34,494 bases of DNA from Planktothrix paucivesiculata PCC 9631 (lineage in GTDB: Bacteria > Cyanobacteriota > Cyanobacteriia > Cyanobacteriales > Microcoleaceae). The notes beneath the pieces are model-generated. The model ran no database searches, was not told the DNA's origin, and worked only from the letters and a program-made list of their open reading frames with translations. A program made the position numbers and the translations under genes. Below, piece by piece: positions 8,234 through 29,833 of the stretch. The first letter of the stretch is position 1. Every line of letters begins with the position of its first letter. The DNA lies in NCBI RefSeq assembly GCF_900009265.2, contig NZ_LR735022.1, positions 39,628-74,121 of the forward strand, in the 5' to 3' direction.

Positions 8234-11200
8234 ATGAACAACGCCAAAGTCAGAATTTACGAACTATCACGGGAACTTAATTTGGATAACAAGGACATCT
8301 TAGCGGTGTGTGAACGGCTAAATATTTCGGTTAAAAGCCACAGTAGCACGATTTCAGAATCAGATAAAGAACGCATTGAAAAATACGTCGCAACTCATCC
8401 GAACCCGGGTCAGCTTGAAGGAAAAGCACCGGGATCGCAACCTAATGGGAAATTATCAGCGACCGCACCCAGCGACAAAAAACGGCAAGAAATTTTAGAG
8501 ATCCAGAAGCCCAAAATTCGGTCGAGCTTCGAGTCCTCCCCCCCCTACGATGAGGCCAGTTCCTCTGACTCAACTTCCGTTGCCACCCCACCTAAATCAC
8601 TTGTTTCTTCAAAAGCGCCTGTGAAACCCACGTTAAATCGACCTGTATTATCAAAACCCAATGCTTCGGCTCCAGCAGAAACGGAATCATCCCCGATAAC
8701 AGCCGAAAACGTTGCCTCAGCAACTGATGAGGAGATGGCTGGGTTAGCATCCGTAGGGGAAATAGAAACTTCCGAAGAGGATTTATCTCTTGAGGAAGCC
8801 GCACCCCTGTCGCCGCCGCCGGTTAGACCTGCCGGGCCAGTTCCAGTTACTGCCACTGTTAGCCCAGAGCCCGCAGCAATTTCTAAAAACAAGCCGGTTT
8901 TAAAGACGAATAAACCAACGCCTAAACCCGTTGAGTCCAGATCCAAAACGGAATCTCCCGAAAAACCCACGCCCAAGTCTCAACAGACGACCCCTGAGGG
9001 GAAAGAAAGGGACTCAGAAGCCAGAAGACCGCCGCGTAAAGAGATTGGCAGTCCCAGACCCCGATCTATCTCAGATTTGCAACCCCCGGCCGCGCGTAAA
9101 CCCGCTCAAGTTATTGATGAGGATGGAGAATCTCAAGAGAGCACCGAGGATGAACCCGCTTCTACTACCGATGATTTAGTCAAACGGCCAAAACGGGCTG
9201 TCACCTTAAATCGACCCAACCCCCCGCGCCCAGGAAAACGAACAGGAGCATGGGAGGAGGAAGAAGAAGAAGTTGTAGATCCAGCTAAAGCGAAGGCAGC
9301 TAAACTCAAAGCCAAGCGACGGGCAAAACCCTCCTTGGATGAAGACGATGACGATGAACTGAATGCGTTGTCTCTGCTGAATGCCAATAATGCCATGATC
9401 AGCGTATCCCTGGCACGTCCTCCCAAACCTAAAGCCAGCCCAGGGCAAAATGTGACGGCGACAACGGCTAGACCGAAAAAACCCGCCCCCAGTCGCGGTT
9501 CGGGTTCTTCTGGTGGAAGTTCGCGCCGGACGGAGGCCAAACCCAAGGCTGAACGCCCGGAGAAAGTGATCGTACCTGGGCCAATGACGGTTCAGGAACT
9601 GGCTTTAGCCTTAATCCTACCGGAAACGGAAATTATCAAACGCCTGTTTTCCCAAGGGATTGCCGTTAATATTACGGAAACCCTGGACTACAACACAATT
9701 CTGTTAATTTGTCAAGACCTTGGCGTTGAAGTTGAAAACGAAAAACTCAAATCCGGTGCAATCAAGCCCGACAATATGCTCAACGCCGACGATCTGGAGC
9801 ATCTGCAACGGCGTCCTCCGGTGGTGACGATCATGGGTCACGTGGATCACGGGAAAACTACCCTCCTGGATGCGATCCGCGAAACCAAAGTGGCTCAGGG
9901 CGAAGCCGGGGGCATTACCCAACACATCGGGGCCTATCATGTCGATATGGAACATGAGGGTCAAACCCAGCAAGTGGTGTTCCTGGATACTCCCGGTCAC
10001 GAAGCTTTTACCGCCATGCGAGCCCGGGGCGCGCGAGTTACGGACGTGGCAATTCTGGTGGTGGCCGCCGATGATGGTGTCCAACCCCAAACCATTGAAG
10101 CCATTAGCCACGCTAAGGCCGCGGGAGTCCCGATTATTATTGCTATCAACAAAATTGATAAGGAAGGCGCCCAGCCCGATCGGGTGAAACAGGAGTTAAC
10201 GGAATTTGCCCTGGTTCCCGAAGAATGGGGCGGCGACACGATTATGGTTCCGGTGAGTGCCATCAGGGGAGAAAACCTTGATACCCTCCTAGAAATGATT
10301 CTGTTAGTGGCGGAGGTTGAAGATCTCTATGCCAACCCCGACCGGGCAGCCAAAGGAACAATTATTGAAGCTCACCTCGACAAGTCCCGAGGCCCCGTGG
10401 CAACGCTGTTAGTACAAAATGGTACTCTGCGAGTTGGGGATATTGTGGTGGCCGGTTCAGTCCTGGGTAAAGTCCGGGCTATGGTGGATGACCGAGGCGA
10501 TCGCGTCGATAATGCCAGTCCTTCCTTTGCCGTTGAGGTCTTAGGTCTGCGGGATGTCCCGGCGGCTGGAGATGAATTCGAGGTCTTTGAAAGTGAAAAA
10601 GAAGCCTCGGCTTTGGCTACCCAACGGGCAGAAACCAAACGGGAAACCCGGTTAATCAAGGGTCGGATCAGTCTGAGTGAATTCTCCGCCCGCGCTCAAG
10701 AGGGTGAGTTGAAGGAACTGAACTTAATCCTCAAGGGGGATGTTCAAGGGTCTGTGGAAGCCATTGTCAGCGCCCTGAAGAAACTGCCTCAGAAAGAAGT
10801 GGAACTGCAATTGCTGTTAGCGGCTCCGGGTGAAATTACGGAAACGGATATTGACTTAGCCTCGGCCAGTAATGCGGTCTTACTAGGATTCAATACCACC
10901 TTAGCCCATGGTGCTCGCCAAGCAGCCGATCGCGCCGGAGTAGATATCCGTGATTACAACATCATTTACAACCTCTTAGATGACGTCCAGGCTGCCATGG
11001 AAGGGCTATTAGAGCCGGAACTGGTGGAAGAACATCTGGGTCAAGTGGAAGTTCGGGCGATTTTCCCCGTGGGACGCAATACCATTGCGGGTTGTTATGT
11101 GCTGTCGGGTAAAGTGGTTCGGAACTGTAAAATCCGAGTTCGTCGGAAAAATGAGGTGGTTCACGAAGGTGTCCTCGACTCCCTGAAACGGATGAAAGAG

Positions 11201-11329
11201 GATGCTAAGGAAGTTAACGCCGGTTACGAATGCGGTGTCGCCTTGGATAACTTCAATGACTGGGCAATGGGCGATATTATCGAAGCCTATCGGATGACCA
11301 CTAAACGCCGTACTTTGTCCTTATCTTAA
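8234..11329 (+). CDS. infB: Translation initiation factor IF-2
   Basis: A 1031-residue IF-2, the GTPase that delivers initiator tRNA to the 30S subunit. An IF2_N domain (~1-55) is followed by a ~380-residue low-complexity linker rich in P, K, S, E and A, long as in other cyanobacteria. A second IF2_N domain lies at ~447-505. The GTPase has G1 G-H-V-D-H-G-K-T-T at 535-543, then D-T-P-G-H and N-K-I-D. Domains II-IV close with the V-G-x-x-x-V-R-x-I-F and G-x-I-A-G-C-Y-V segments. The ATG at 8234 has an AGAGGGG ribosome-binding site upstream. A strong terminator follows the stop. GC content is visibly higher than in the flanking glycan genes. Confidence 0.98.
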
Positions 11330-11987: not shown

Positions 11988-13838
11988 CTAATGCCAGTTA
12001 AACCGCATTCCTAAACAATCTTCTAATTTCTGATTATAAGGCTGAAAATAATGATTGAGTAATCTCCGAGTTGATTCAGAGATGGGCGGATAGGGTCGGG
12101 TATTATATTGATGATAGTTTAAAAGATGATATTCGGGTAAACCCAAGAAATTAAGGACTTTTGTTGTTCCCTGGTCAGGGTTTGCATAAAATTCTTCACT
12201 GCTTAAAATTAAAAACTGTTCCCTAGGAAATACTTTTATCCATTTTTCTAAGAAATGAATATACAACCCTTTAGCTAAATAGCCTTGAAAGTTTGGGTCA
12301 TGGAGTCTTGTCCAAAAATCAGTTTTTTGATCCTCTAATTGGTGGATTTCTCGTTGAATTGCTTCTTCAAAAGAGGATAATTCCCATTTTAAACTTAACC
12401 AATGATAATAGTGAGAAACCGCTCGGTCAATGGGATTTCTTAATAATAAAATTAATTTGACATTCGGAAAAAATTTAACTAAATTTTCGGCTACTTCTGG
12501 AGAATTAAAGTTTATGGGTGTGGCTTCTCCTACTAAACAGTGATAGTTAGGAGGAATAGGGGGAAAATGAGAAAAATACCACTCTAAACCTCTATCAATT
12601 TGATTTGACCAAAAGGGCATTTCTTTAATCATTGAGGACATGATATTATGGTGTTCAGAGAGATAGTAATTTAAAGAAGTTGTTCCTCCTTTTTGGGTTC
12701 CAATAATTAAGTAATCTAGGTGATTAACCGGTTTTAAGGTTTCGGAAATATTTTGCCATTGTGGACGGAATTTAGGGATGATTTTTTGACCCGCAATATA
12801 ATTATATTTAATCGCAGATTGTAAATCTCCTTGAGCAGTATATAATACGGCTAAATTCAAATATAAAATAGAGGATTGTGGATGTTTTTCCAGGGCTTGA
12901 TCAAAAATATTAATGGCTTGACTCAGTTGGTTTTCTGCTTGAATAAAATCTACAATATTTTGATAATTCCAAAGATAGAGATCGGGTTTAAGTTCTAAAA
13001 ATTTGAGATAGCTAAAAACTGCTTCCTTTGGCTGTTGGTTGCGGGCTAACGCCATTCCTAAGTTATAATGAACTTGAGGATCATTAGGATTCAGTTCAAC
13101 AGCACTCTGACATTTTTCAACCTCTTGATCTAAAACCCTTTTTTCATCTAAAAGTGTTGCTATTTTTTGAGAAATATCTAAATTATTGGGTTGGATTTGC
13201 AGGGCAATATGATATGATATAAGGGCTGCAAACTCATATTTTTTTTGAATGAGGAGTTCTGCTAATTTGATACAGGGTGCAAAATCATCAGGTTGATTGA
13301 GGGCTAGACCATACTCATTAATTACAGTATCTAATCCTTTTTTAATTTGAGCTTGAAGAATGACTCCAATTTGATTGACACTTTCTAATAAATCAGGGTT
13401 TTGCTTCCAAGCCTTAAAATAAGCAATAACAGATTCTTGCCAATTTTGCTGCTGATAAAAAGCCTCTCCTAAATAATAATATGACCAACAAAAATTAGGG
13501 TTGATTTCAATGGCTTTAGAATAAGCATAAATCGCTTGATCCCATTGTTGTTGTTGAATTAACGCCATTCCTAGGTTATGATAAGACCAGGAGAAGTCAG
13601 GGTTAAGGGCGACCGCTTGATTATAAACAACAATTGCTTCCGTCCATTTGTTTTGCTGAGAAAAAATATCTCCTAACTGATGATAAGCCCAGGAAAAATT
13701 AGGATCAAGTTCGATAGTTTTTTGATAAAGTGCGATCGCATCTTCCAAATTTCCTTTACTTCTATAAAGTTCCGCCTGTTCGTATAAACTGGAAGCTGAA
13801 ATGGGGTTTTTGGGTAATAAATTAGAATCAAAACTCAT
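11988..13838 (-). CDS. TPR-repeat protein with C-terminal PAPS-dependent sulfotransferase
   Basis: A 616-residue fusion. Residues ~15-350 are TPRs, the first four near-regular (recurring N-P-x-F-S-W-x-Y-H-x-L-G) and closely resembling those of the TPR-GT61 protein. A sulfotransferase domain follows (~373-610). It has the 5'-phosphosulfate loop G-T-Q-K-G-G-T-T-S-L near 380 and the 3'-phosphate motif L-R-N-P-I-D-R-A-V-S-H-Y about 90 residues later. It would transfer sulfate from PAPS to a sugar hydroxyl in a polysaccharide, probably in the cytoplasm since no signal peptide is visible. It is divergent from the three-domain glycosyltransferase gene 78 nt away, suggesting shared control. The acceptor is unknown. 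Confidence 0.9.
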   Translation of the reverse strand: MSFDSNLLPKNPISASSLYEQAELYRSKGNLEDAIALYQKTIELDPNFSWAYHQLGDIFSQQNKWTEAIVVYNQAVALNPDFSWSYHNLGMALIQQQQWDQAIYAYSKAIEINPNFCWSYYYLGEAFYQQQNWQESVIAYFKAWKQNPDLLESVNQIGVILQAQIKKGLDTVINEYGLALNQPDDFAPCIKLAELLIQKKYEFAALISYHIALQIQPNNLDISQKIATLLDEKRVLDQEVEKCQSAVELNPNDPQVHYNLGMALARNQQPKEAVFSYLKFLELKPDLYLWNYQNIVDFIQAENQLSQAINIFDQALEKHPQSSILYLNLAVLYTAQGDLQSAIKYNYIAGQKIIPKFRPQWQNISETLKPVNHLDYLIIGTQKGGTTSLNYYLSEHHNIMSSMIKEMPFWSNQIDRGLEWYFSHFPPIPPNYHCLVGEATPINFNSPEVAENLVKFFPNVKLILLLRNPIDRAVSHYYHWLSLKWELSSFEEAIQREIHQLEDQKTDFWTRLHDPNFQGYLAKGLYIHFLEKWIKVFPREQFLILSSEEFYANPDQGTTKVLNFLGLPEYHLLNYHQYNTRPYPPISESTRRLLNHYFQPYNQKLEDCLGMRFNWH

Positions 13839-20012: not shown

Positions 20013-20225
20013 TATTAGTGCTCTCCCTTGAAGAATACCCAGAAAAAATTGAATACATTAAGATGATAAGCTAAGATTAGCATATAATTACGGGGAACTC
20101 TTGCACAGATTAATCGTCCTTCTGCCAATCGTGCCTATCGATTTCTAGGTTGAAATTGTGATAGGATGCTTTATGTTGACTAAACCTCAGACCAGCAACC
20201 CTTATTTTTTGAGAGCGAAGAATTC

Positions 20226-22469
20226 ATGACGGTGACAGCCTTTCAGCAAGCCAACCAACTGTTAAGAGAAGGAAAGTTAGAAGAAGCAGTGGTCGCTTAT
20301 CAGCAAGCGATTGAGTATAATCCACAATTTTATGGTGCTTATCAAAATTTAGGGGAAGCTCTCTGGAAATTTGGATGCTTAGAGCAAGCAGCTACAGCCT
20401 TTCAGAAGGCTATTGAGTTAAAACCGTCCGCAGCTTGGTCTTATTTTAACTTGGCACAGGTGTTGGAGCAGTTAGGGAGGAAAGAGGAATCGATCGCATC
20501 TTACGAAAAGGCAAGTGAGTTAAATCCCCAACTGATCAGTCTTCGACAACAGTTAGAGGCTTCGCTGATTAACGATCAACCTGTAATACCTGATGAAGAT
20601 ATTGCCCTACTTTACCCCCGGGCTGAATATCAAAAATTAGAACTAACTCAATTAACAATTCAGCCGAGAAACAAGCCCAAACTTATCAATGATGTTCGTT
20701 TAATTGCTTATTATCTTCCACAATTTCACCCAATTCCAGAAAATGATTTATGGTGGGGTAAAGGTTTTACGGAATGGACAAATGTTAGCCGTGCAAAACC
20801 CTTATTTGAAGGTCATTATCAACCCCACATTCCTGCAGAATTGGGTTTTTATGATTTACGTCTTCCTGAAGTTCGAGAAGCTCAAGCTGAACTAGCCAAA
20901 AAATATGGAATTTATGGATTCTGTTATTATTATTATTGGTTTGCAGGAAAGCGCCTATTACATCGACCGATTGATGAAGTTGTTGCCAGTAAAAAACCTG
21001 ACTTTCCCTTTTGCATCTGCTGGGCTAATGAAAATTGGACAAGAAGATGGGATGGACTAGCCCATGAAGTCTTGATTGCACAAGATCACTCGTTAGAACA
21101 AAATCAAGTTTTTGCTGAAAGCATTGTTCATATTTTAAGAGATGAGCGATATATTCGCATCAATGGTGCTCCTTTACTGATTGTTTATCGAAGCGATATT
21201 TTACCAGATCCAATTCGCACAACAGAACTCTGGAGAAAGATATTTAAACAACAGGGAGTTGGAGAAGTTCATTTAGCGATTGCCATTACTTGTTTTTCAG
21301 GAGTAGTTGATCCAACTCAATTGGGCTTTGACTCTGCTGTACAATTTCCCCCTCATGGAATACCGGCAAAGGAATTGACACCACCTGAAACCATAGTTTC
21401 AGATTTTTCAGGTCATTTCTTCGATTACCCAGATGCAGCCATCAATGGCGTTGCAGATGCAATGCCTGATTTTAAATTTTTTCCAGGAGCAATGACATCT
21501 TGGGATAACACAGCCAGACGGAAAAGTGGAGCTCATGCTTTTTTGAATTTCCATCCGGATTGGTATGAATTATGGTTACGCGGTTCTATTGAAAAAGCCA
21601 AACATTGTTCTTCAGGTGATGAACAATTAGTATTTATTAATGCTTGGAATGAATGGGCAGAAGGAGCGCATCTTGAGCCTGATACGAAATTTGGACATGG
21701 CTATCTGATGGCAACCTCTAGGGCTTTAGAGGGGAACACGGGTTGGAAAACAATTCTGAATTTATTGAGGTATTTTCCCTATAAAACACCGGATTGGATA
21801 AATCAATATCTTGATCAATTAGAACAGAGAATTTTATCACAAGACAGGTCATTAAAAGCCCTTGCTAAAATTGTAGAAACAGTGGGTATACCTCAAGAAA
21901 TTATTTCTTTTTCAGTTCCTTCAGGACTGTATTGGAATATAGAATCATTTCCTCCTGATGCAGATGTTTATATGACTTCTATCGTTTTTAAAGGCTGGAT
22001 TTTGAATGAAAAGACTCCTATTAAGTCTGTTGAAATTTTATCAAAAGGTCGTTTGGTGCAAAGAACTCCCATTGATCAACAGCGCTTAGACGTAGCAAAC
22101 TTTCACTCAACCATTCCAGGAGCAGAAAATAGCGGTTTTCTCACCAAGGTTAACAACCCTGAATTGAAATCTAACACAGAGTTTAAATTACAGGCTGTTT
22201 TAGAAGATAATACTTGTATTCCTTTGGCACTGATTCCCTTTAAGTCCGGTTTCCAACTCCTAGGAATTGACAACTTTGAACAAACCTTGTTAGACTCCGA
22301 AGGTTGGCAAGTTATCTTAAATCCGCTGCGAGGGATAGCGATTGAAAGTGATGTTTATCGTTGGCATCTTTTAGAGAAGTTAGAAAAGAATATTCAAGCT
22401 AAGGAAGATTTAATTAAGGTAATGTCGGATTTTTTAGGAAAAATTTCTGCTGAATGTTTGTTTGATTGA
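20226..22469 (+). CDS. TPR-WbsX-type glycosyltransferase with C-terminal GW domain
   Basis: A 747-residue three-part protein. Three TPRs occupy ~1-110. A WbsX/GH99-like domain follows (~155-500), with A-Y-Y-L-P-Q-F-H, G-K-G-F-T-E-W-T-N-V, G-F-C-Y-Y-Y-Y-W-F, W-A-N-E-N-W-T-R-R-W and N-A-W-N-E-W-A-E-G, all typical of this family in O-antigen and rhamnan loci. The family is assumed to be glycosyltransferase or glycan-active; its reaction is not firmly known. Residues ~569-672 carry a F-K-G-W-I-L...R-L-D-V...S-G-F segment shared with three other proteins in the next 8 kb. It is the first gene of a four-gene plus-strand run. Confidence 0.88.
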   Translation: MTVTAFQQANQLLREGKLEEAVVAYQQAIEYNPQFYGAYQNLGEALWKFGCLEQAATAFQKAIELKPSAAWSYFNLAQVLEQLGRKEESIASYEKASELNPQLISLRQQLEASLINDQPVIPDEDIALLYPRAEYQKLELTQLTIQPRNKPKLINDVRLIAYYLPQFHPIPENDLWWGKGFTEWTNVSRAKPLFEGHYQPHIPAELGFYDLRLPEVREAQAELAKKYGIYGFCYYYYWFAGKRLLHRPIDEVVASKKPDFPFCICWANENWTRRWDGLAHEVLIAQDHSLEQNQVFAESIVHILRDERYIRINGAPLLIVYRSDILPDPIRTTELWRKIFKQQGVGEVHLAIAITCFSGVVDPTQLGFDSAVQFPPHGIPAKELTPPETIVSDFSGHFFDYPDAAINGVADAMPDFKFFPGAMTSWDNTARRKSGAHAFLNFHPDWYELWLRGSIEKAKHCSSGDEQLVFINAWNEWAEGAHLEPDTKFGHGYLMATSRALEGNTGWKTILNLLRYFPYKTPDWINQYLDQLEQRILSQDRSLKALAKIVETVGIPQEIISFSVPSGLYWNIESFPPDADVYMTSIVFKGWILNEKTPIKSVEILSKGRLVQRTPIDQQRLDVANFHSTIPGAENSGFLTKVNNPELKSNTEFKLQAVLEDNTCIPLALIPFKSGFQLLGIDNFEQTLLDSEGWQVILNPLRGIAIESDVYRWHLLEKLEKNIQAKEDLIKVMSDFLGKISAECLFD

Positions 22470-22519
22470 TGTATAAACTAAAACACCGGATACGATAAAA
22501 TGTTAATTGTAAATCTTCA

Positions 22520-23407
22520 ATGATAATTACCATGCAGAAAATTTCTCAAAATCCGCTGATTTCTGTTATTATTCCTTGCTACAAACATGAAAAGTTTGTT
22601 GAAAGGTGTCTTAACTCAGTTGCTGCTCAAACTTATGACAACATAGAGGTGATCATTGTTGATGACTGTTCTCCTGATGATTCTGTCAAAAAAATTGAGC
22701 AGGTTATTAACAGTAAAAGCTGGATTGCTAAGTTTGATAATCGCACAAAATTTTACCCATTTAATCAGAATCAAGGTGCTCATAATGCCATTAATCACGG
22801 GATCAAACAATCTACTGGTGAATTGATTGCACTTCTGAACTCAGATGATTTGTATCATCAGGACAGACTTTCACGCATTGTTGAGGTTATGCAAAATCAA
22901 AACCATCAATTTGTTTTTAGTCGGGTTCAATATATTGATGATAATGATACAACTATCACTGACTCTCATTACATGGCTCAATCTTACTTCGGATCACAAA
23001 AAAATATCAAGCTGAAGCAATTTCCTTCCTTGGGATTTGCTTGCTTATCATTTAACATCAGTATATCGACAGGAAACTTTGTTTTTAGTAAAGCCCTTTA
23101 TAATGCTTTGGGTGATTTTAAAGATTATCGATATTGCCATGATTGGGATTTTTTACTTCGGGCTTTAGTTCATACTGAACCATTCTTTTTAGAGGAAGAT
23201 CTATATTACTATCGGTTTCACGGCAAGAACACCTTTGAATCTTTGCAAGCCATTGGCCCGATAGAATCAGCCGAACTTCTCAGAAACTTTTTTTCCCAAG
23301 TCCAATTAAAACCTACTCCTAACCCCATTGCGCCGTCACCTTTAAATTGGCCGGGTTTCTTTGAACTTTTTGTTCGATGGCATGGTTTAGAGCGTTTTTT
23401 ACAGTAG
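22520..23407 (+). CDS. GT2 glycosyltransferase
   Basis: A 295-residue single-domain GT-A transferase. It has I-S-V-I-I-P-C-Y-K-H near the start, V-D-D-C-S-P-D-D, the N-Q-G-A-H-N-A-I-N strand, L-N-S-D-D as the DxD-type metal motif, and a C-H-D-W-D-F-L-L-R catalytic-acid region. It belongs to a different GT2 branch from the 13.9 kb and 2.8 kb proteins and lacks their C-terminal helical module. The start is ATG at 22520, with ATG at 22532 as an alternative. It lies 50 nt after the WbsX gene and 43 nt before the methyltransferase, so one transcript is likely. A 29-nt piece of its 3' region is duplicated at 24750-24778. Confidence 0.92.
   Translation: MIITMQKISQNPLISVIIPCYKHEKFVERCLNSVAAQTYDNIEVIIVDDCSPDDSVKKIEQVINSKSWIAKFDNRTKFYPFNQNQGAHNAINHGIKQSTGELIALLNSDDLYHQDRLSRIVEVMQNQNHQFVFSRVQYIDDNDTTITDSHYMAQSYFGSQKNIKLKQFPSLGFACLSFNISISTGNFVFSKALYNALGDFKDYRYCHDWDFLLRALVHTEPFFLEEDLYYYRFHGKNTFESLQAIGPIESAELLRNFFSQVQLKPTPNPIAPSPLNWPGFFELFVRWHGLERFLQ
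23188..23216 (+). repeat. 29-nt direct repeat, donor copy inside the GT2 gene
   Basis: This stretch of the GT2 coding sequence (TTTAGAGGAAGATC at its start) recurs without a mismatch at 24750-24778 in the spacer before the sulfotransferase fusion gene. The second copy is non-coding, which identifies this one as the source. Confidence 0.85.
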
Positions 23408-23450
23408 TTAACAGATTTTTATTGATTCAATCTAAAATGGAGGTATAGCA

Positions 23451-24689
23451 ATGTTTACGCTAATCAAGAAAATAATCAATTGCCCAAACAAATTTGAGAA
23501 AAAAATCATTGGATATAGTATTGACAGTCCCAATTTAGAATATTCTACCAATGTCACAGAAGTGTTCTTAACGGGCTGGGTATTACCAACAGAGGAGAAA
23601 GAAGCACAGATTGTGGTTGAAGGCAGTGGTGTTATGGAAACCTTCCCTTGCGATGTCCAGAGAGACGATGTTACAAAAACTATTCTAGGAGAAATACATC
23701 CAAATATAAAATGTGGTTTTCAGATCAAGTGGATTCACACAGGGATATTTAACATATCTTTTGTAATCGAAGGCGAAAAAATGTTGATGGCTGAGATTGA
23801 AATTAAGTCTGCGTTTATAGACATCGTAAATCAAGAGTTATATAAAATAGAAAATTCACTAAGGTATTCCACTTCACGGGATGAATTATTTCAGCAACTG
23901 CGCTACTGTCTTGGCTTAGATGATTTCGGTATGCTTCTTTGGTCTATGCCAAATATGGCCTACCCAAAAATGTCAAAGATTCTTCCCAAAATGGCGACGA
24001 ATGAAGTCCAGTTAAGCTGGACAGGGAGTTCGGGAATAGACTTGCTAACAAAGACCACAGCTTTTGTTCGCTCAGTCGCTCATAACTTTTGTAAATTTTC
24101 AGGTACTACCCTGGATAATAAATCAATCTTGGACTTTGGTTGCGGATATGGGCGGATTGCGCGTTTAATGTATTATTTCACCAATTCTGAAAACTTTTTT
24201 GGGGTTGATCCTTGGGACAGGTCGATAGAGATATGTCGCTCGGATGGACTTGAGAGAAATTTCTTGTTATCCGATTATCTTCCGGTGGATCTTCCAACGG
24301 GTTCGAGGAAATTTTCTCTTATTTACGCATTTTCTGTATTTACGCATCTTTCTGAGCGGGCAACTGTTAGATCAATTGAAACACTGCTTCAACATTTAGA
24401 ATCAAGCGGACTTTTGGTTATAACAATTAGGCCTGTTGAATACTGGAATATCGACCAAAATGCTCGAGGGCTTGGTGTGATTGACCAACTAATTTCCTCA
24501 CATAAACAAAATGGATTTTCTTTTTTACCTCATCCTAGGCCAGCAGTTGATGGCGACATTACCTATGGCGATACATCAATGAGCTTGAATTGGATCAAAG
24601 CAACATTCCCGAAAGCAGAGATTGTGGCGGTTGATCGTTCCCTTTATGACCCGTTCCAAGTCTATGTTTTTCTTCGGCGCTTGAGTTAG
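23451..24689 (+). CDS. GW-domain SAM-dependent methyltransferase
   Basis: A 412-residue protein. An N-terminal GW domain (~19-120) has L-T-G-W-V-L, then R-D-D-V and C-G-F. A class I methyltransferase follows, with SAM motif I L-D-F-G-C-G-Y-G-R at ~225-233, an acidic V-D-P-W strand after it, and F-S-V-F-T-H-L-S as motif IV. It may methylate a sugar of the local glycan; the substrate is not identifiable. A strong ribosome-binding site GGAGG lies 9 nt before the ATG. Its first 361 nt (23451-23811) are duplicated without gaps at 25510-25870 inside the fusion gene, and even the 34-nt leader is repeated at 24797-24830. Confidence 0.87.
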   Translation: MFTLIKKIINCPNKFEKKIIGYSIDSPNLEYSTNVTEVFLTGWVLPTEEKEAQIVVEGSGVMETFPCDVQRDDVTKTILGEIHPNIKCGFQIKWIHTGIFNISFVIEGEKMLMAEIEIKSAFIDIVNQELYKIENSLRYSTSRDELFQQLRYCLGLDDFGMLLWSMPNMAYPKMSKILPKMATNEVQLSWTGSSGIDLLTKTTAFVRSVAHNFCKFSGTTLDNKSILDFGCGYGRIARLMYYFTNSENFFGVDPWDRSIEICRSDGLERNFLLSDYLPVDLPTGSRKFSLIYAFSVFTHLSERATVRSIETLLQHLESSGLLVITIRPVEYWNIDQNARGLGVIDQLISSHKQNGFSFLPHPRPAVDGDITYGDTSMSLNWIKATFPKAEIVAVDRSLYDPFQVYVFLRRLS

Positions 24690-24698
24690 CGAAAAGTC

Positions 24699-24746
24699 AC
24701 TTAGGCTTTAAAATGCGTGATCTGAACACATCATTATCGCCTAAGT
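24699..24746. repeat. 8-bp inverted repeat in the 24.7 kb spacer
   Basis: ACTTAGGC at 24699-24706 and GCCTAAGT at 24739-24746 flank 32 nt, immediately before the duplicated 29-nt GT2 fragment. It may be a stem-loop ending the upstream message, or a trace of the insertion event that produced the duplication. Confidence 0.45.
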
Positions 24747-24749
24747 CGA

Positions 24750-24830
24750 TTTAGAGGAAGATCTATATTACTATCGGTCTGCTATAGTTGAGAGAGTTTT
24801 ATTAATTCAATCTAAAACTGAGGTGTAACT
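24750..24830 (+). repeat. Duplication scar: GT2 fragment plus methyltransferase leader
   Basis: Bases 24750-24778 are an exact copy of 23188-23216 inside the GT2 gene. Bases 24797-24830 are a slightly diverged copy of the leader at 23417-23450, including TTCAATCTAAAA and the ribosome-binding region. The roughly 200 nt that separate the two in the original are missing here. The spacer is therefore a deleted second copy of the GT2 end and its intergenic region. Confidence 0.85.
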
Positions 24831-24831
24831 A

Positions 24832-26622
24832 ATGGCAATTTTATGTAAAGAAATAAATTTACTGTTTATCTGTGTTCCAAAAACAGGAAGTTCATCCCTT
24901 GAAAATTTTTTAATTAGGAACTTTGGTGGGAAACAGCTTTTGACAGAGCATATTTGGGATGATGATCGTAAGACCGTTTTGGTGGACTATAGACATATTA
25001 GGATCAAAGAGATAATATCACATAGATTATTAACCTTAGCTCAACTTGAGCAAATGAAGATATTAGCAGTTACCAGAAATCCTTTTGATTGGGTTGTGTC
25101 ACATTATGTATTTATTGTGAACTCCTATCAGAGACTTAAACAAGAAGGAGAAAAAGCACCTGATTGGATTATTGCTAGAAAACATTGGCTAACCGAAATA
25201 GCTAGTATGAGTTTTGATGAATATGTTGCTGGGTTCAATAACCAAGATATATCAGTGTATAGTTCATTCATTGAAGGTATAGATGAAGGGAAAGTAGAAG
25301 TTGTCAAACTTGAGCAATTAGATAGTGAGGTTAAAAGGATTTTTCAAGAATTAGGAGTTGAATTATTGCAAAACATACCACACGAGAATAAGACAGCAGG
25401 CAAAAAAACGGATTTTAGATTATATTACAGCAATAAATCAAGGCAAATTATAGAACAATCTTTTGCTAGGGATTTTGATCGTCTCGGTTATTCTTTTGAT
25501 GATGTAGCAATGTTTACAGTAATCAAGAAAATAATCAATTTCCCAAACAAATTTGAGAGAAAAATCTTTGGATATAATATTGACAGTCCCAATCCAGAAT
25601 ATTCTACTAATGTCACAGAAGTGTTTTTAACGGGCTGGGTGTTACCCAGAGCGGAGGAAGAAGCACAGATTGTAGTTGAAGGCAGTGGTGTCATGGAAAC
25701 CTTCCCTTGCGATGTCCAGAGAGACGATGTTACAAAAACTATTCTAGGAAAAATACATCCAAATATAAAATGTGGTTTTCAGATCAAGTGGATTCACACA
25801 GGGATATTTAACATATTTTTTGTAATCGAAGGTGAAAAAATGTTGGTAGCTGAAATTCAGATCCAGTCTGAGATTGATTCAAGTGACTCGTCATTTGAAA
25901 AAAAAGATAATCAAGTGATGAAAAATCAAGGCTATTGTTACACCTGCGATCAAGAAGTAGAGTTTTCTTCTCACCAAGCTTGGTTGAGAGATTCTTATAA
26001 ATGTAACAATTGTGGATCAATCCCTCGAGAAAGAGCCTTAATGTACTGTATAGAAAAGTTTTACCCACACTGGAAACAACTTTCTATACACGAAACTTCA
26101 CCTGCAAGTAGAGGCGCTAGTCTTAAACTAAAAAATAATTGTCCCAACTATCAAACCAGTCAATACTTTCCAGAATTTCCTTTGGGTGAAACTCATAGTA
26201 GTGGATGGAGAAATGAAGACTTAGAAAATCAGACATTTGCTGATGAAACTTTTGATCTAGTGATTAGTCAAGATGTAATGGAGCATATTTTTAATCCTGA
26301 AAAAGCTTTTTCAGAAATTGCTAGAACTTTAAAACACGGAGGGGCGCATATATTTACAGTACCGATAGTAAATAAGCAAAAACCTTCTAGTGTTCGTGCT
26401 ACATTAGAGGCTAATGGTGAAATTAATTATTTAGAGGAAGCTCAGTATCATGGTAATCCAGTCAACCCTCAAGGATCATTAGTCACTAGGGACTGGGGTT
26501 ATGATATCTGCGATTTTATTTTGAAGCACAGTGGATTATATACAACTATTGTTTATATAGACGATATATCGTTGGGCATTAGAGCCGAATATATAGAGGT
26601 TTTGATTAGTAGAAAAATTTAA
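24832..26622 (+). CDS. Fusion: sulfotransferase - GW domain - zinc-ribbon methyltransferase
   Basis: A 596-residue fusion. Residues 1-226 form a small sulfotransferase with P-K-T-G-S-S-S-L-E (~16-24, PAPS 5'-phosphosulfate loop) and T-R-N-P-F-D-W-V-V-S-H-Y (3'-phosphate motif). Met227 starts a near-copy of the N-terminus of the 23451 gene, the GW domain (~245-346). Then comes a zinc ribbon with C369-x-x-C372 and C391-x-x-C394, and a class I methyltransferase with D-L-V-I-S-Q-D-V-M-E-H-I. The last part resembles the separate 251-residue protein at 28506-29261. The junction at Met227 coincides with the paralogue's start codon, so the fusion arose by joining a sulfotransferase to a duplicated gene. 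It likely sulfates and methylates the same glycan. Confidence 0.85.
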   Translation: MAILCKEINLLFICVPKTGSSSLENFLIRNFGGKQLLTEHIWDDDRKTVLVDYRHIRIKEIISHRLLTLAQLEQMKILAVTRNPFDWVVSHYVFIVNSYQRLKQEGEKAPDWIIARKHWLTEIASMSFDEYVAGFNNQDISVYSSFIEGIDEGKVEVVKLEQLDSEVKRIFQELGVELLQNIPHENKTAGKKTDFRLYYSNKSRQIIEQSFARDFDRLGYSFDDVAMFTVIKKIINFPNKFERKIFGYNIDSPNPEYSTNVTEVFLTGWVLPRAEEEAQIVVEGSGVMETFPCDVQRDDVTKTILGKIHPNIKCGFQIKWIHTGIFNIFFVIEGEKMLVAEIQIQSEIDSSDSSFEKKDNQVMKNQGYCYTCDQEVEFSSHQAWLRDSYKCNNCGSIPRERALMYCIEKFYPHWKQLSIHETSPASRGASLKLKNNCPNYQTSQYFPEFPLGETHSSGWRNEDLENQTFADETFDLVISQDVMEHIFNPEKAFSEIARTLKHGGAHIFTVPIVNKQKPSSVRATLEANGEINYLEEAQYHGNPVNPQGSLVTRDWGYDICDFILKHSGLYTTIVYIDDISLGIRAEYIEVLISRKI

Positions 26623-26696
26623 AAAATGGTAGCCCTGTATAAGTTATAATTCAAGTCGATCTAATCCCCTAGATATAAGGCTCGAAAAGGCAAAAA

Positions 26697-28466
26697 TCAC
26701 TGCTTCTCTGTCGCTACTACCTGAAACTGAACTTTTTTGAGTGGAATACAGCTTTTATTTGAACAAACAGCTTGTATTAGTAACTCTCCCTGCTCTACAA
26801 GTTCACCTATATCAACAATAGTTTCAAATCCGCTCATCCCAGCATCAGGTAAATGGGAATAAGCCTGAGCAACATCTGGACGGGGAAAATCAATCAAAAC
26901 TTGTTTAACTACTACATGATTATGGATAATTTGTATAGCCTCCACTGTTGATTTTTTTCCCAACACCCAACCTTTCAACATAAGTTCAACTGTGCTACTG
27001 GTGTTGACTTGTGTAGCTTGATCCACATTAAATCCCCAAAGTGCTTCTGGGTCATCTTGTGAACATGAAATTATTGTTGTATTTATCGTGTAGCTGCTAG
27101 TCTCTGATGATGCACGTTCTAAGCTGTCGTTTTTATCAAGATATACAGAATCTAAAGCATATTGGATTCTATTAAAATTATTTGAGCATAATGCTACAAA
27201 GTACACTGGATCATCTAATGAGCAATTTTTCCTCAAAACTTCTTGATCATTGCTAGTATAATGGGTTATATAGTATTTATCATTATCATTCAAGGAATAA
27301 ACAAAAGAACCCATACAAATTTTTTGTCCGTATAAGGTAAAATATAGAAAATATTTATTGAGTAAATCTACAAATTCCTCCCGATACAGTTCTTTAACAT
27401 GAAACGGATTATGGTAATTAGGCAAATCTGAATAAACCAGGCGATTTGGAGAAGAAATAACTAATATCCCATCCTTTTTGAGAACCCTTTGAATTTCTTG
27501 CATCATTTCCTCGTGTTGATCATGATGCTCTATAGTTTCAAATGAAACAACAATATCTATAGATTCACTAGGTAAGGGAATTGAATTACACTGACCAACC
27601 AAAAACTTTAAATTCGATTTGTCTTGATATTTATTTTCAGCAAATTTAACAGACTCTATATCAATATCAACACCTACCACTGAACTCGCTGTTTGCGACA
27701 ATATAGCCGAACCATAACCTTCTCCAGAGGCTATGTCTAAAACGGACTTACCGCGCACAATTTCCAGACATAGCCCATACCGATGTAAATGTTCGTACCT
27801 AATTTGACCTTTAACATTAGGGATATACCTTTCACCCGTAAATGCCATCTCAAGATTATCTTTTGGAGGTGAAACGATATTATTAGATTTTTTGCTATCG
27901 TTTGATAGTTGTGGATTCAGCCTAATCGCTTTCTGGTAATATGAACTAGCTAAAGATAACTTATCTTGTTTTGATAATACTTGACTTAAATTATAATAAC
28001 CCCAACAAGAATCTGGTTTTAATTCTATGGCTTTCTGAAAACAAGTAACAGCCAAGTCATATTGTTCTTTTTCCATCAAAGCTAAGCCCAGACTGTTATA
28101 ATATTTATGGCACTTAGGCTGAATCTCTATCGCTCGATCAAAATAAAAAATTGCTTCATCAAATAACTTTTGTTTGATCGCAACCTCTCCCAAGTAACCA
28201 TGAGACAATGCGGAACGAGGATTTAATTCAATAGCTTTTTTAAATTCCAAAACTGCTTCTTCCAGCAATCCTTTTTGCGCTAAAGCATCCCCTAAATTTT
28301 GATACAAAATGAACGAATTAGGACTGAGCTTTATTGCACGACGGTATTTAGTGATCGCTTCATTGAGTTTACCCTCTCGCTTTTGTTGATTAGCTTTTCT
28401 AATCAAATCTTCTGGGAGTATTAGTCTGTCTTTCTGTGTATGGGTTTTGGCTGATTTCAATTTCAT
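26697..28466 (-). CDS. TPR - SAM methyltransferase - GW domain protein
   Basis: A 589-residue protein. Five TPRs lie at ~20-190. A class I methyltransferase spans ~208-400, preceded by F-T-G-E-R-Y-I-P, a pre-domain often seen in polysaccharide-locus methyltransferases, with SAM motif I L-D-I-A-S-G-E-G at 243-250, V-D-I-D and F-E-T-I-E-H-H. A GW domain (~477-589) has L-K-G-W-V-L, R-P-D-V and S-G-F. The TPR and GW modules are those fused to other enzymes nearby, in a different order. It is convergent with the sulfotransferase fusion (74-nt gap). It lies 39 nt downstream of the 251-residue methyltransferase on the same strand, probably a two-gene operon. The substrate is unknown, presumably a surface sugar. 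Confidence 0.87.
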   Translation of the reverse strand: MKLKSAKTHTQKDRLILPEDLIRKANQQKREGKLNEAITKYRRAIKLSPNSFILYQNLGDALAQKGLLEEAVLEFKKAIELNPRSALSHGYLGEVAIKQKLFDEAIFYFDRAIEIQPKCHKYYNSLGLALMEKEQYDLAVTCFQKAIELKPDSCWGYYNLSQVLSKQDKLSLASSYYQKAIRLNPQLSNDSKKSNNIVSPPKDNLEMAFTGERYIPNVKGQIRYEHLHRYGLCLEIVRGKSVLDIASGEGYGSAILSQTASSVVGVDIDIESVKFAENKYQDKSNLKFLVGQCNSIPLPSESIDIVVSFETIEHHDQHEEMMQEIQRVLKKDGILVISSPNRLVYSDLPNYHNPFHVKELYREEFVDLLNKYFLYFTLYGQKICMGSFVYSLNDNDKYYITHYTSNDQEVLRKNCSLDDPVYFVALCSNNFNRIQYALDSVYLDKNDSLERASSETSSYTINTTIISCSQDDPEALWGFNVDQATQVNTSSTVELMLKGWVLGKKSTVEAIQIIHNHVVVKQVLIDFPRPDVAQAYSHLPDAGMSGFETIVDIGELVEQGELLIQAVCSNKSCIPLKKVQFQVVATEKQ

Positions 28467-28505
28467 ATTATTTGTTGATCTAATTTTTTATTTAGATTAT
28501 ATCAA

Positions 28506-29261
28506 TTAATTTCTAGCAATTTTATTCTTGCCACGATCTTTATTTGCTATTACTGCTATCGAAGCCGGATACATGATGCTATGGAGATGAACATCTTTAA
28601 ACCCGGCATCAAAAATTTCCCCAAAAAAGTCAGCACCGTATTCACGATAAACAAGGTGGTCTTCTAAATTTTTGCTTTCCCTGCCATGGTAACTAGGTTT
28701 TAAACCCTCACGACTTCTAGTGATTCGTTCAGGAATTATAGGGATTGTATAAGCTAAAAATCCTTTTGATGTTAGAACTCTTCGACACTCTTGCAAGGCT
28801 TTATTACCGTTGGGAATATGTTCGAGTGTATCCGAGTGGATAATAATATCAAAGCTTTCATTTTGGTAAGGAAGCTGCTGCATATCACATTCTGGATAAG
28901 AGGCAAAAAGATATTGGGGAAGTTGGGCAAGATAGGGAGTAAGGCTTCCTGCTCCATTGATTTCCAAAACACGAAGATTTTTAAAGATTTCATTGTTAGC
29001 ACAAAAATTTGTAAAAAATTCATTAGATGTTTCTAATCTAGCCATTATAGCGGAGGCTAACGTCATAGAACGAAGATTAGAGCCACATTGATTGCAAACA
29101 AGACCTTGTTGATCGTCAACGTAACTGCGTTGTTCGGGGGTAAGCTCCCAGTCTGTTGCAAGTTCGTCCCAAATAATAGTATTCTTTGTGAAGCTAGAAC
29201 CCCCACAAATACAACAGTAATCAGGAAAAATCAATCCGGTTTTTTTTGATGTTGTGTCCAT
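28506..29261 (-). CDS. Zinc-ribbon SAM-dependent methyltransferase
   Basis: A 251-residue protein. The N-terminus carries C-C-I-C-G-G (16-21) and C56-N-Q-C59-G-S, a four-cysteine zinc ribbon. It is followed by a class I methyltransferase with V-L-E-I-N-G-A-G-S in place of the canonical glycine loop and I-I-H-S-D-T-L-E-H-I as motif IV. The arrangement, including the C-terminal R-E-Y-G-A-D and Y-R or W-G-Y variants, parallels the last ~230 residues of the sulfotransferase fusion at 24832-26622. It is first of a two-gene minus-strand operon with the TPR-methyltransferase. The substrate is not known. Confidence 0.85.
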   Translation of the reverse strand: MDTTSKKTGLIFPDYCCICGGSSFTKNTIIWDELATDWELTPEQRSYVDDQQGLVCNQCGSNLRSMTLASAIMARLETSNEFFTNFCANNEIFKNLRVLEINGAGSLTPYLAQLPQYLFASYPECDMQQLPYQNESFDIIIHSDTLEHIPNGNKALQECRRVLTSKGFLAYTIPIIPERITRSREGLKPSYHGRESKNLEDHLVYREYGADFFGEIFDAGFKDVHLHSIMYPASIAVIANKDRGKNKIARN

Positions 29262-29356
29262 GGAAAAACAAAAATTATAAGTTTGAGGAGTTATTTAAGT
29301 GTTTATACAACTGCTTGTTTGCGAATCTTATCTTCTGGTTCATCATTAGGATTTGT

Positions 29357-29386
29357 GCCATTCAGATTTTAATTGAATGGCTTTTT
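29357..29386 (+). terminator. Orphan plus-strand intrinsic terminator
   Basis: GCCATTCA at 29357-29364 pairs perfectly with TGAATGGC at 29374-29381 around a 9-nt loop, followed by TTTTT. Both immediate upstream genes are on the minus strand, so no annotated plus-strand gene ends here. Confidence 0.7.
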
Positions 29387-29733
29387 CTAAAAAAATTATC
29401 TTGAAAAAGAAATAATTGATGATTTACCATTGTGACAAAACCCTCCTAAATCTACTTGAACATATTATCATATCCCTGTTTATAGTTGCAATAGGGCTAA
29501 AGGAATCAAGGGTGTAGCATTGGCAACAACTTTCATCTATCAGTTAGTTTCTGTGCAAATTGATGACTCGTTTGACAACTGCAAATTCAGCCTCTGTGTA
29601 ATCTATCACAGTAAATCTCTGTTGACTAATCAAGCGATAAAACTCCAAACGACTACATTCCAAAATACCCGCATCAATTTGATACTCCTAGTAATGGCCG
29701 TTATAGGTAGATAGTCATAATAAAAACAGGTTT
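29387..29733. other. Mostly non-coding stretch upstream of the FkbM gene
   Basis: I see no convincing intact gene in these ~350 nt. A plus-strand frame from TTG at 29520 (64 codons) has no recognisable content. The minus strand holds a 47-codon protein-like remnant, listed separately. Confidence 0.5.
29544..29687 (-). pseudogene. Unidentified 47-codon coding remnant
   Basis: Between a TAG and a TAA the minus strand reads 47 codons with no ATG. The composition is protein-like, including F-Y-R-L-I-S-Q-Q-R-F-T-V-I-D-Y-T-E-A-E-F and a C-terminal V-I-N-L-H-R-N. It could be the tail of a decayed gene such as a toxin-type small protein. I do not recognise the family, and chance is possible. Confidence 0.25.
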
Positions 29734-29780
29734 CGTTGTTGTGCTTAAGCGCAATAATAGAGGGCTAAAGCCCAACAACA
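29734..29780. repeat. Imperfect inverted repeat (GTTGGGCTTTAGCCC type), copy 2
   Basis: CGTTGTTGTGCTTA at 29734-29747 and TAAAGCCCAACAACA at 29766-29780 form an imperfect stem. The right arm with its flank (AGGGCTAAAGCCCAACAAC) is the complement of the left arm at 3899-3919. This is a second copy of the same element, inverted relative to the first. Confidence 0.7.
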
Positions 29781-29833
29781 AATTTCTTTGTGTGTGCGAG
29801 GTAATATGAACACCTACTTAAATTCAGTTATTA

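Follow-up and report, generated by a model that had tools for sequence, protein, structure and literature searches.

The frame at 24832-26622 of the window (the whole stretch of 34,494 nucleotides from Planktothrix paucivesiculata PCC 9631 that was analysed) is best read as a mosaic fusion gene within an exchanged Planktothrix surface-glycan cluster, which would have been assembled stepwise and whose product would both sulfate and methylate one glycan. We give this reading, the functional part of which is deduced from the predicted domains, a probability of about two in three. Fusions are usually known as end products only; in this case the parts, a sister form, the fusion itself and a probable scar of loss can be compared to the base, which gives a detailed view of how reshuffling within surface-sugar clusters can produce new enzymes.

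Layout of the fusion gene

The gene is a single stop-free frame of 596 codons that contains a sulfotransferase (ST), a GW module of about 120 amino acids and a zinc-ribbon methyltransferase (ZnMT). The elements of the gene and of its immediate upstream region are the following:

23451..24689, plus strand: paralogue, GW module followed by a class I methyltransferase (GW-MT gene), with its own GGAGG leader
24750..24831, plus strand: two duplicated pieces ahead of ST, one of 29 nt from the family 2 glycosyltransferase (GT2) gene and one of 33 nt from the leader of GW-MT (100% matches)
24832..25509, plus strand: ST domain, residues 1-226 (Sulfotransfer_2, motifs, stand-alone 225-aa orthologue in genome G009)
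25510..25893, plus strand: GW module, residues 227 to about 354, a copy of the first 121 codons of the paralogue
25894..26622, plus strand: ZnMT (Methyltransf_11), which at the join lacks the start codon that stand-alone copies have

At the domain level, Sulfotransfer_2 (PF03567) is matched by residues 3-221 with 37.8 bits against a curated cut-off of 22 (Pfam, E 3.1e-9), and the PHROGs collection assigns the ST part to a galactose-3-O-sulfotransferase family (E 2.2e-8). The segments PKTGSSS at residues 16-22 and RNPFDWVVS at residues 82-90 carry the patterns PKxGSSS and RNPxxxxVS, which we take to be the PAPS-binding loop and the RNP motif of Sulfotransfer_2, and from these motifs the ST domain is likely to be active. 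Residues 459-508 match Methyltransf_11 with 46.9 bits against a cut-off of 21.2 (Pfam, E 4.6e-12), a match that covers positions 46-95 of the 95 in the profile and leaves positions 1-45, the first half of the SAM-binding fold, unmatched; the predicted model of ZnMT has a pLDDT of 66. Ahead of the methyltransferase domain, two CxxC pairs mark the putative zinc ribbon; the Pfam match to Zn_ribbon_19 is weak (E 0.064), and all four cysteines of the pairs are present in seven of eight aligned proteins, the fusion among the seven. Residues 227-360, the GW stretch, match no Pfam family at E values up to 1, save for a sub-threshold edge match to Lipoprotein_16 (residues 196-252, E 0.078), and their predicted structure, with a pLDDT of 88.8, consists of strands almost throughout. 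No NCBIfam family scored above its cut-off on the fusion. When solved structures were searched by sequence, the best hits of GW (E 0.32) and ST (E 0.13) were both unrelated molecules, and the methyltransferase part retrieved general methyltransferases only. A viral origin was considered and rejected: neither the query P0001 nor the methyltransferase alignment found a relative in viral contigs, and the ST alignment led to two contigs at 23% identity.

Origin of the GW module

The first-pass annotation had claimed that Met227 of the fusion lies at the start codon of the paralogue and that 361 nt align there without a gap at roughly 88% protein identity, and the comparison bears this out. Met227, encoded at 25510, occupies the position homologous to the paralogue start codon at 23451; the stretches 23451-23811 and 25510-25870 align ungapped with 334 of 361 nt identical (92.5%) and with 87.6% protein identity across 121 codons. 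Both edges of the match are sharp, the first lying a few bases at most from the start codon and the second being abrupt, and the repeat is far beyond chance. Its 27 differences are unevenly spread: a 124-nt window, whose length was picked post hoc, holds only one of them, which was equalled by 5 of 2000 random placements.

The proposal that a sulfotransferase was joined to the start of a duplicated GW gene also gains from what precedes the ST domain. The fused GW module duplicates the start of the paralogue, and the 29-nt GT2 piece and the 33-nt leader piece stand ahead of ST, which indicates that the duplicated segment took in the GT2 tail, the leader and the beginning of GW and that ST now lies inside it. 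The leader piece is identical to the leader of the GW-MT gene of Planktothrix rubescens; before ST, P. rubescens itself has the GT2 piece (28 of 29 nt) and not the leader piece. The opposite course, in which the GW-first paralogue arose from an ST-GW gene by loss of ST, is possible, if on balance somewhat improbable. Such a loss would fit both the leader of the paralogue, which resembles that of ST as far as the start codon, and the adjacency of ST and GW in G009; against it, G065 and G009 have GW-first genes that carry no fused ST. Individual sites support different gene trees for the GW copies, and therefore no branching order was read from them.

Separate parts and sister forms in Planktothrix

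When 148 genomes were searched with the whole protein, with no more than eight first-look candidates scored in each, one genome among the matches listed, the source genome itself, had a match that runs without a break across residues 1-596. The closest sister form is the 492-aa protein of P. rubescens PCC7821, which shares 86% identity with the fusion in ST and 88% and 91% in its two GW copies and has its neighbours in the same order; its architecture is ST-GW-GW, without ZnMT, whereas that of the fusion is ST-GW-ZnMT. It matches residues 1-355 and then continues in frame with the second GW. The repeat unit of this tandem (L034:10000-11478) starts inside the last ST codons. In G009, ST is a stand-alone gene of 225 aa with its own stop, followed after 107 nt by a 933-aa GW-TPR gene. 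The search of related genomes for separate parts, proposed with the first annotation, thus recovered ST and GW as separate genes, and the alternative contemplated there, that the fusion is the ancestral form in all relatives, is not what the sequences indicate, because its parts stand alone elsewhere.

Two further features bear on the fate of ZnMT:

25898..26660, plus strand: block with a homologue in Tychonema bourrellyi, comprising ZnMT and 38 nt past its stop codon (763 nt, 92.4% identity, 2 gaps)
26634..26660, plus strand: 27 nt of the 3' flank of ZnMT, retained in P. rubescens, probably as a scar (27-mer search)

Homology with P. rubescens stops at 25893 and restarts at 26633, and the intervening stretch falls within the Tychonema-like block at 25898-26660. 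The last 27-28 nt of the ZnMT flank are found in P. rubescens directly behind the second GW, with ZnMT missing. Allowing up to three mismatches, the flank 27-mer occurs as a single copy in each of G000, G001 and G051 and is absent from the other 287 of 290 genomes. Its being a dispersed repeat was ruled out by this distribution (one copy in each of 3 of 290 genomes). The 27-mer in P. rubescens is probably the scar of a lost ZnMT, and P. rubescens probably lost the gene, because the 3' flank is retained there. Two other genomes keep traces as well: G007 retains the last 23 ZnMT codons near a contig end, and G009 retains, as judged by eye, about 26 nt of the ZnMT end before the same TPR-GT2 gene. 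Taken together, three other Planktothrix genomes seem to have lost ZnMT or to carry it in broken form, and among the ten Planktothrix genomes searched, one of them 73% complete, it is whole only as the fusion in the matches listed. By eye, the remnant in G007 follows an 82-aa piece that resembles the end of a transposase gene of the IS630 type, in which Pfam found no family.

These sister forms also bear on whether the GW-ZnMT junction could be an artefact of assembly or binning, which we consider very improbable. The genome is a draft of 184 contigs, and a 92.5% repeat only 2 kb away could mislead an assembler; however, the contig is 201 kb long, the frame runs continuously through the junction, the GW copies differ at 27 of 361 sites and in the P. 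rubescens genome, assembled independently, GW and the ZnMT flank adjoin at the same position.

Stand-alone ZnMT and its proposed addition to the gene

Outside the fusion, ZnMT is a stand-alone gene of 238-258 aa in six other genomes listed with strong matches, namely G051 (Tychonema bourrellyi), G065, G086, G015, G048 and G078. The stand-alone zinc-ribbon class I methyltransferases of Tychonema and of Trichodesmium, Gomphosphaeria and Desulfobacula MAGs are of similar length to the fused domain and share 60-92% protein identity with it over nearly its whole extent; unlike the fusion, they have their own start codon and neither ST nor GW attached. The Gomphosphaeria match to residues 1-596 consists of separate frames about 1 kb apart, a 221-aa ST relative (23% identity) and a 238-aa ZnMT; in G086 a distant ST gene (23%) and the ZnMT gene lie close together in separate frames. 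The sequences thus place the stand-alone ZnMT as a part added to an ST-GW gene. On this point the earlier annotation finds no support, as it had held that the original methyltransferase of the duplicated gene was exchanged for a zinc-ribbon type. The P. rubescens copy has no methyltransferase and carries the 3' flank scar of ZnMT, ZnMT stands alone in the six genomes and was added downstream of GW, and there is no sign that the fused copy ever carried the methyltransferase of the paralogue.

The Tychonema gene shares 92% protein identity with the fused ZnMT, and the DNA identity of the homologous block (92.4%) is to be compared with 62.7% for the IF-2 genes of the source and Tychonema; synonymous divergence of ZnMT from Tychonema is 0.23. 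As read from these sequences, ZnMT too is a gene transferred between genera, Planktothrix and Tychonema. It might then be argued that ZnMT never occupied this site in P. rubescens, that it was inserted late in the lineage of the window and that Tychonema was the recipient of ZnMT with its flank. The exchange itself would agree with this, as identity alone fixes no direction, but the Tychonema start, MTKIIKNPG, resembles that of the other stand-alone forms while the fused ZnMT has no such start, and the remnants in G007 and G009 indicate that the gene is old in the genus, all of which makes a late insertion quite unlikely. The addition of an existing stand-alone ZnMT, followed by loss in P. rubescens, is accordingly kept as the preferred order of events.

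The cluster and its apparent exchange between species

The neighbours of the fusion and the extent of the shared block are as follows:

20221..28498, no strand assigned: block common to P. rubescens, ZnMT excepted (95% DNA identity, five genes)
20226..22469, plus strand: TPR-WbsX glycosyltransferase with a C-terminal GW module (WbsX E 2.1e-133)
22520..23407, plus strand: GT2 (Pfam)
26697..28466, minus strand: TPR-methyltransferase with a C-terminal GW module (Pfam and GW match)
28506..29261, minus strand: ZnMT2, a second methyltransferase of the zinc-ribbon kind, absent at the same place of P. rubescens

Farther out lie more glycosyltransferases, a GDP-mannose dehydratase-like gene and a TPR-sulfotransferase, interspersed with rimP, nusA and infB, and the locus as a whole looks like a surface-glycan cluster. 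The GW module is present in glycosyltransferase, methyltransferase and sulfotransferase proteins. No export family was matched in the 21 frames scanned (of 26 frames of at least 100 aa, the five others overlap longer ones). The second sulfotransferase of the window, at 11988-13838 on the minus strand, combines TPR with Sulfotransfer_1.

Against P. rubescens the block is 95% identical in DNA over 5.7 kb and 1.9 kb, a value that exceeds those of the two other loci used as the core comparison, the infB region (90% over 5.2 kb) and a second chromosomal stretch (three pieces, 88-91%), and for this reason the block appears to have been exchanged between species. Synonymous divergence from P. rubescens ranges from 0.06 to 0.12 for WbsX, GT2, the methyltransferase part of the paralogue and the TPR-methyltransferase, and is 0.36 for IF-2. 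Between P. rubescens and G009 it is 0.02 for IF-2 and 0.22 for the ST genes. The IF-2 gene of the source (8234-11326) is nearer to that of G007 than to that of P. rubescens, and among the ten genomes searched P. rubescens alone shares the whole glycan block. From these comparisons the locus seems to move independently of species.

Several smaller differences were recorded around the block. A segment of 957 nt (28499-29455) comprising ZnMT2 and its surroundings is missing at the same place of P. rubescens, where both zinc-ribbon methyltransferases of the block are thereby gone, and the TPR-methyltransferase frame next to the missing ZnMT2 has there an N-terminus longer by 122 aa. On the side where the window has other genes, P. 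rubescens carries near the block (L034:565-3144) a Glyco_tran_28_C/GNAT gene and a NeuB gene, presumably as in nonulosonic-acid pathways. Past the end of the exchanged block, at 29732-29790, about 50 nt match many scattered Planktothrix sites as a dispersed short repeat.

Selection and translation starts

ZnMT is under strong constraint, with a dN/dS of 0.15 (0.08-0.25) against Tychonema, and the neighbouring genes show values of 0.2-0.3. For ST, three species pairs gave 0.83 (0.44-1.91), 0.68 (0.40-1.15) and 0.68 (0.44-1.14), near neutral, as could come from decay or from diversifying selection. If decay were the cause, ST would be a passenger and the ZnMT half alone would work, GW-ZnMT being the useful part of the protein. 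These ratios speak for such a course; yet ST is free of stops in three species, retains the PAPS-loop and RNP motifs and has wide confidence limits reaching down to 0.40, and we regard a decaying passenger as unlikely in comparison with a protein in which both enzymes function.

As to the number of products, the SD-like duplex energies are -0.3 kcal/mol at Met227 and -1.1 at Met363, to be compared with -10.6 at the paralogue start (GGAGG). The lack of an SD-like signal at both internal positions favours a single chain and makes a second product starting at Met227 less likely, an argument weakened by the fact that some separate genes show little signal as well (none for G009 GW, none for G086 ZnMT and -1.1 for G065 ZnMT).

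Proposed assembly and function

We infer that ST and GW, which lie side by side but unfused in G009, were in a first step united in a single frame beside the duplicated GW start. A stand-alone ZnMT with its 3' flank would then have been attached in frame behind GW with loss of its own start codon; the junction is observed, and the direction of joining is suggested by the stand-alone forms found elsewhere. In a third step the block would have moved between species, with P. rubescens losing ZnMT and doubling GW, where the scar and the duplication are observed and their succession is proposed. The encoded protein would act in the cytoplasm, its ST domain transferring sulfate from PAPS, and ZnMT transferring methyl groups from SAM, to hydroxyls of the same growing surface glycan. 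GW may be a beta-sandwich that tethers the enzyme to the glycan or to a partner, a role it would also play in the neighbouring GW-bearing glycosyl- and methyltransferases, and both activities would thereby reach the same acceptor at a fixed ratio. In fold, GW would be a candidate for a carbohydrate-binding module of the CBM21 or CBM56 kind. If the protein works, a bloom-forming cyanobacterium has a single chain that adds both sulfate and methyl to one surface glycan, and exchange of the cluster between species would directly alter the cell coat met by phages and grazers. A broader and distinctly speculative idea, which we think rather unlikely to hold, is that GW constitutes a portable module for recombination and tethering, whose short, near-identical coding stretches allow surface-glycan clusters of cyanobacteria to trade entire glycosyl-, methyl- or sulfotransferase domains and to hand the resulting combinations on from species to species; a sulfated and methylated coat could then vary fast, like O-antigen switching, and the fusion would be a working bifunctional example.

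Comparison with other sulfotransferase proteins

Animal bifunctional sulfotransferases such as NDST also have a sulfotransferase fused to a second glycan-modifying activity, the partner being a deacetylase. In 292 genomes of the phylum, PF03567 gave 109 matches in 45 genomes. Fourteen of the matches belong to open frames 340 aa or longer (twelve scanned with Pfam, the fusion and the P. rubescens protein), of which two, the fusion and G262, contain a methyltransferase and four contain GW. Sulfotransfer_2 fell below the scan threshold in three of the twelve, with no sulfotransferase family in G028 and Sulfotransfer_3 in G328 and G481. A thirteenth protein scanned, that of G035, came from the whole-protein search and also combines ST and methyltransferase. 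The claim that both transfers on one polypeptide are an unusual combination holds in part, such chains being uncommon (2 of 14 long frames) and not unique. Like the fusion, the proteins of G262 (445 aa) and G035 (891 aa) carry Sulfotransfer_2 and a methyltransferase on one chain, the ST of G035 being 23% identical to that of the fusion (E 3e-10); they differ in the absence of GW and in methyltransferases without significant likeness to ZnMT, and G035 additionally carries TPR and a glycosyltransferase domain. A 457-aa frame of P. rubescens and a 399-aa frame of G118 join GW and Sulfotransfer_2 as the fusion does, but in reversed order, with GW first, and without a methyltransferase.

The sulfotransferase genes of cyanobacteria are described as lying mostly in extracellular-polysaccharide clusters (PMC8205485). 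The xss/synechan cluster treated in the same work has its sulfotransferases among glycosyltransferases, as in the Planktothrix locus, and comprises two sulfotransferase genes, eight glycosyltransferase genes and Wzx/Wzy genes, a methyltransferase going unmentioned in the main text (PMC8205485). The wps-1 polysaccharide cluster of Actinoplanes missouriensis resembles the present locus in that a SAM methyltransferase is encoded there together with two sulfotransferases, and differs from it in that WpsB, WpsH and WpsF are separate genes with no fusion (PMC13390465). Sulfotransferase and methyltransferase genes are separate in the relevant passages of PMC8205485, PMC11766843 and PMC13390465, and, judged by titles and the beginnings of abstracts, none of the papers listed names an ST-methyltransferase fusion. 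The papers listed for Planktothrix together with sulfotransferase concern, by their titles, peptides, toxins and other subjects. In a Clostridia MAG (L055:9980-12589), a ZnMT relative (39% identity) opens a frame of about 870 aa that reaches the end of the available stretch and is perhaps another fusion of a ZnMT-type methyltransferase.
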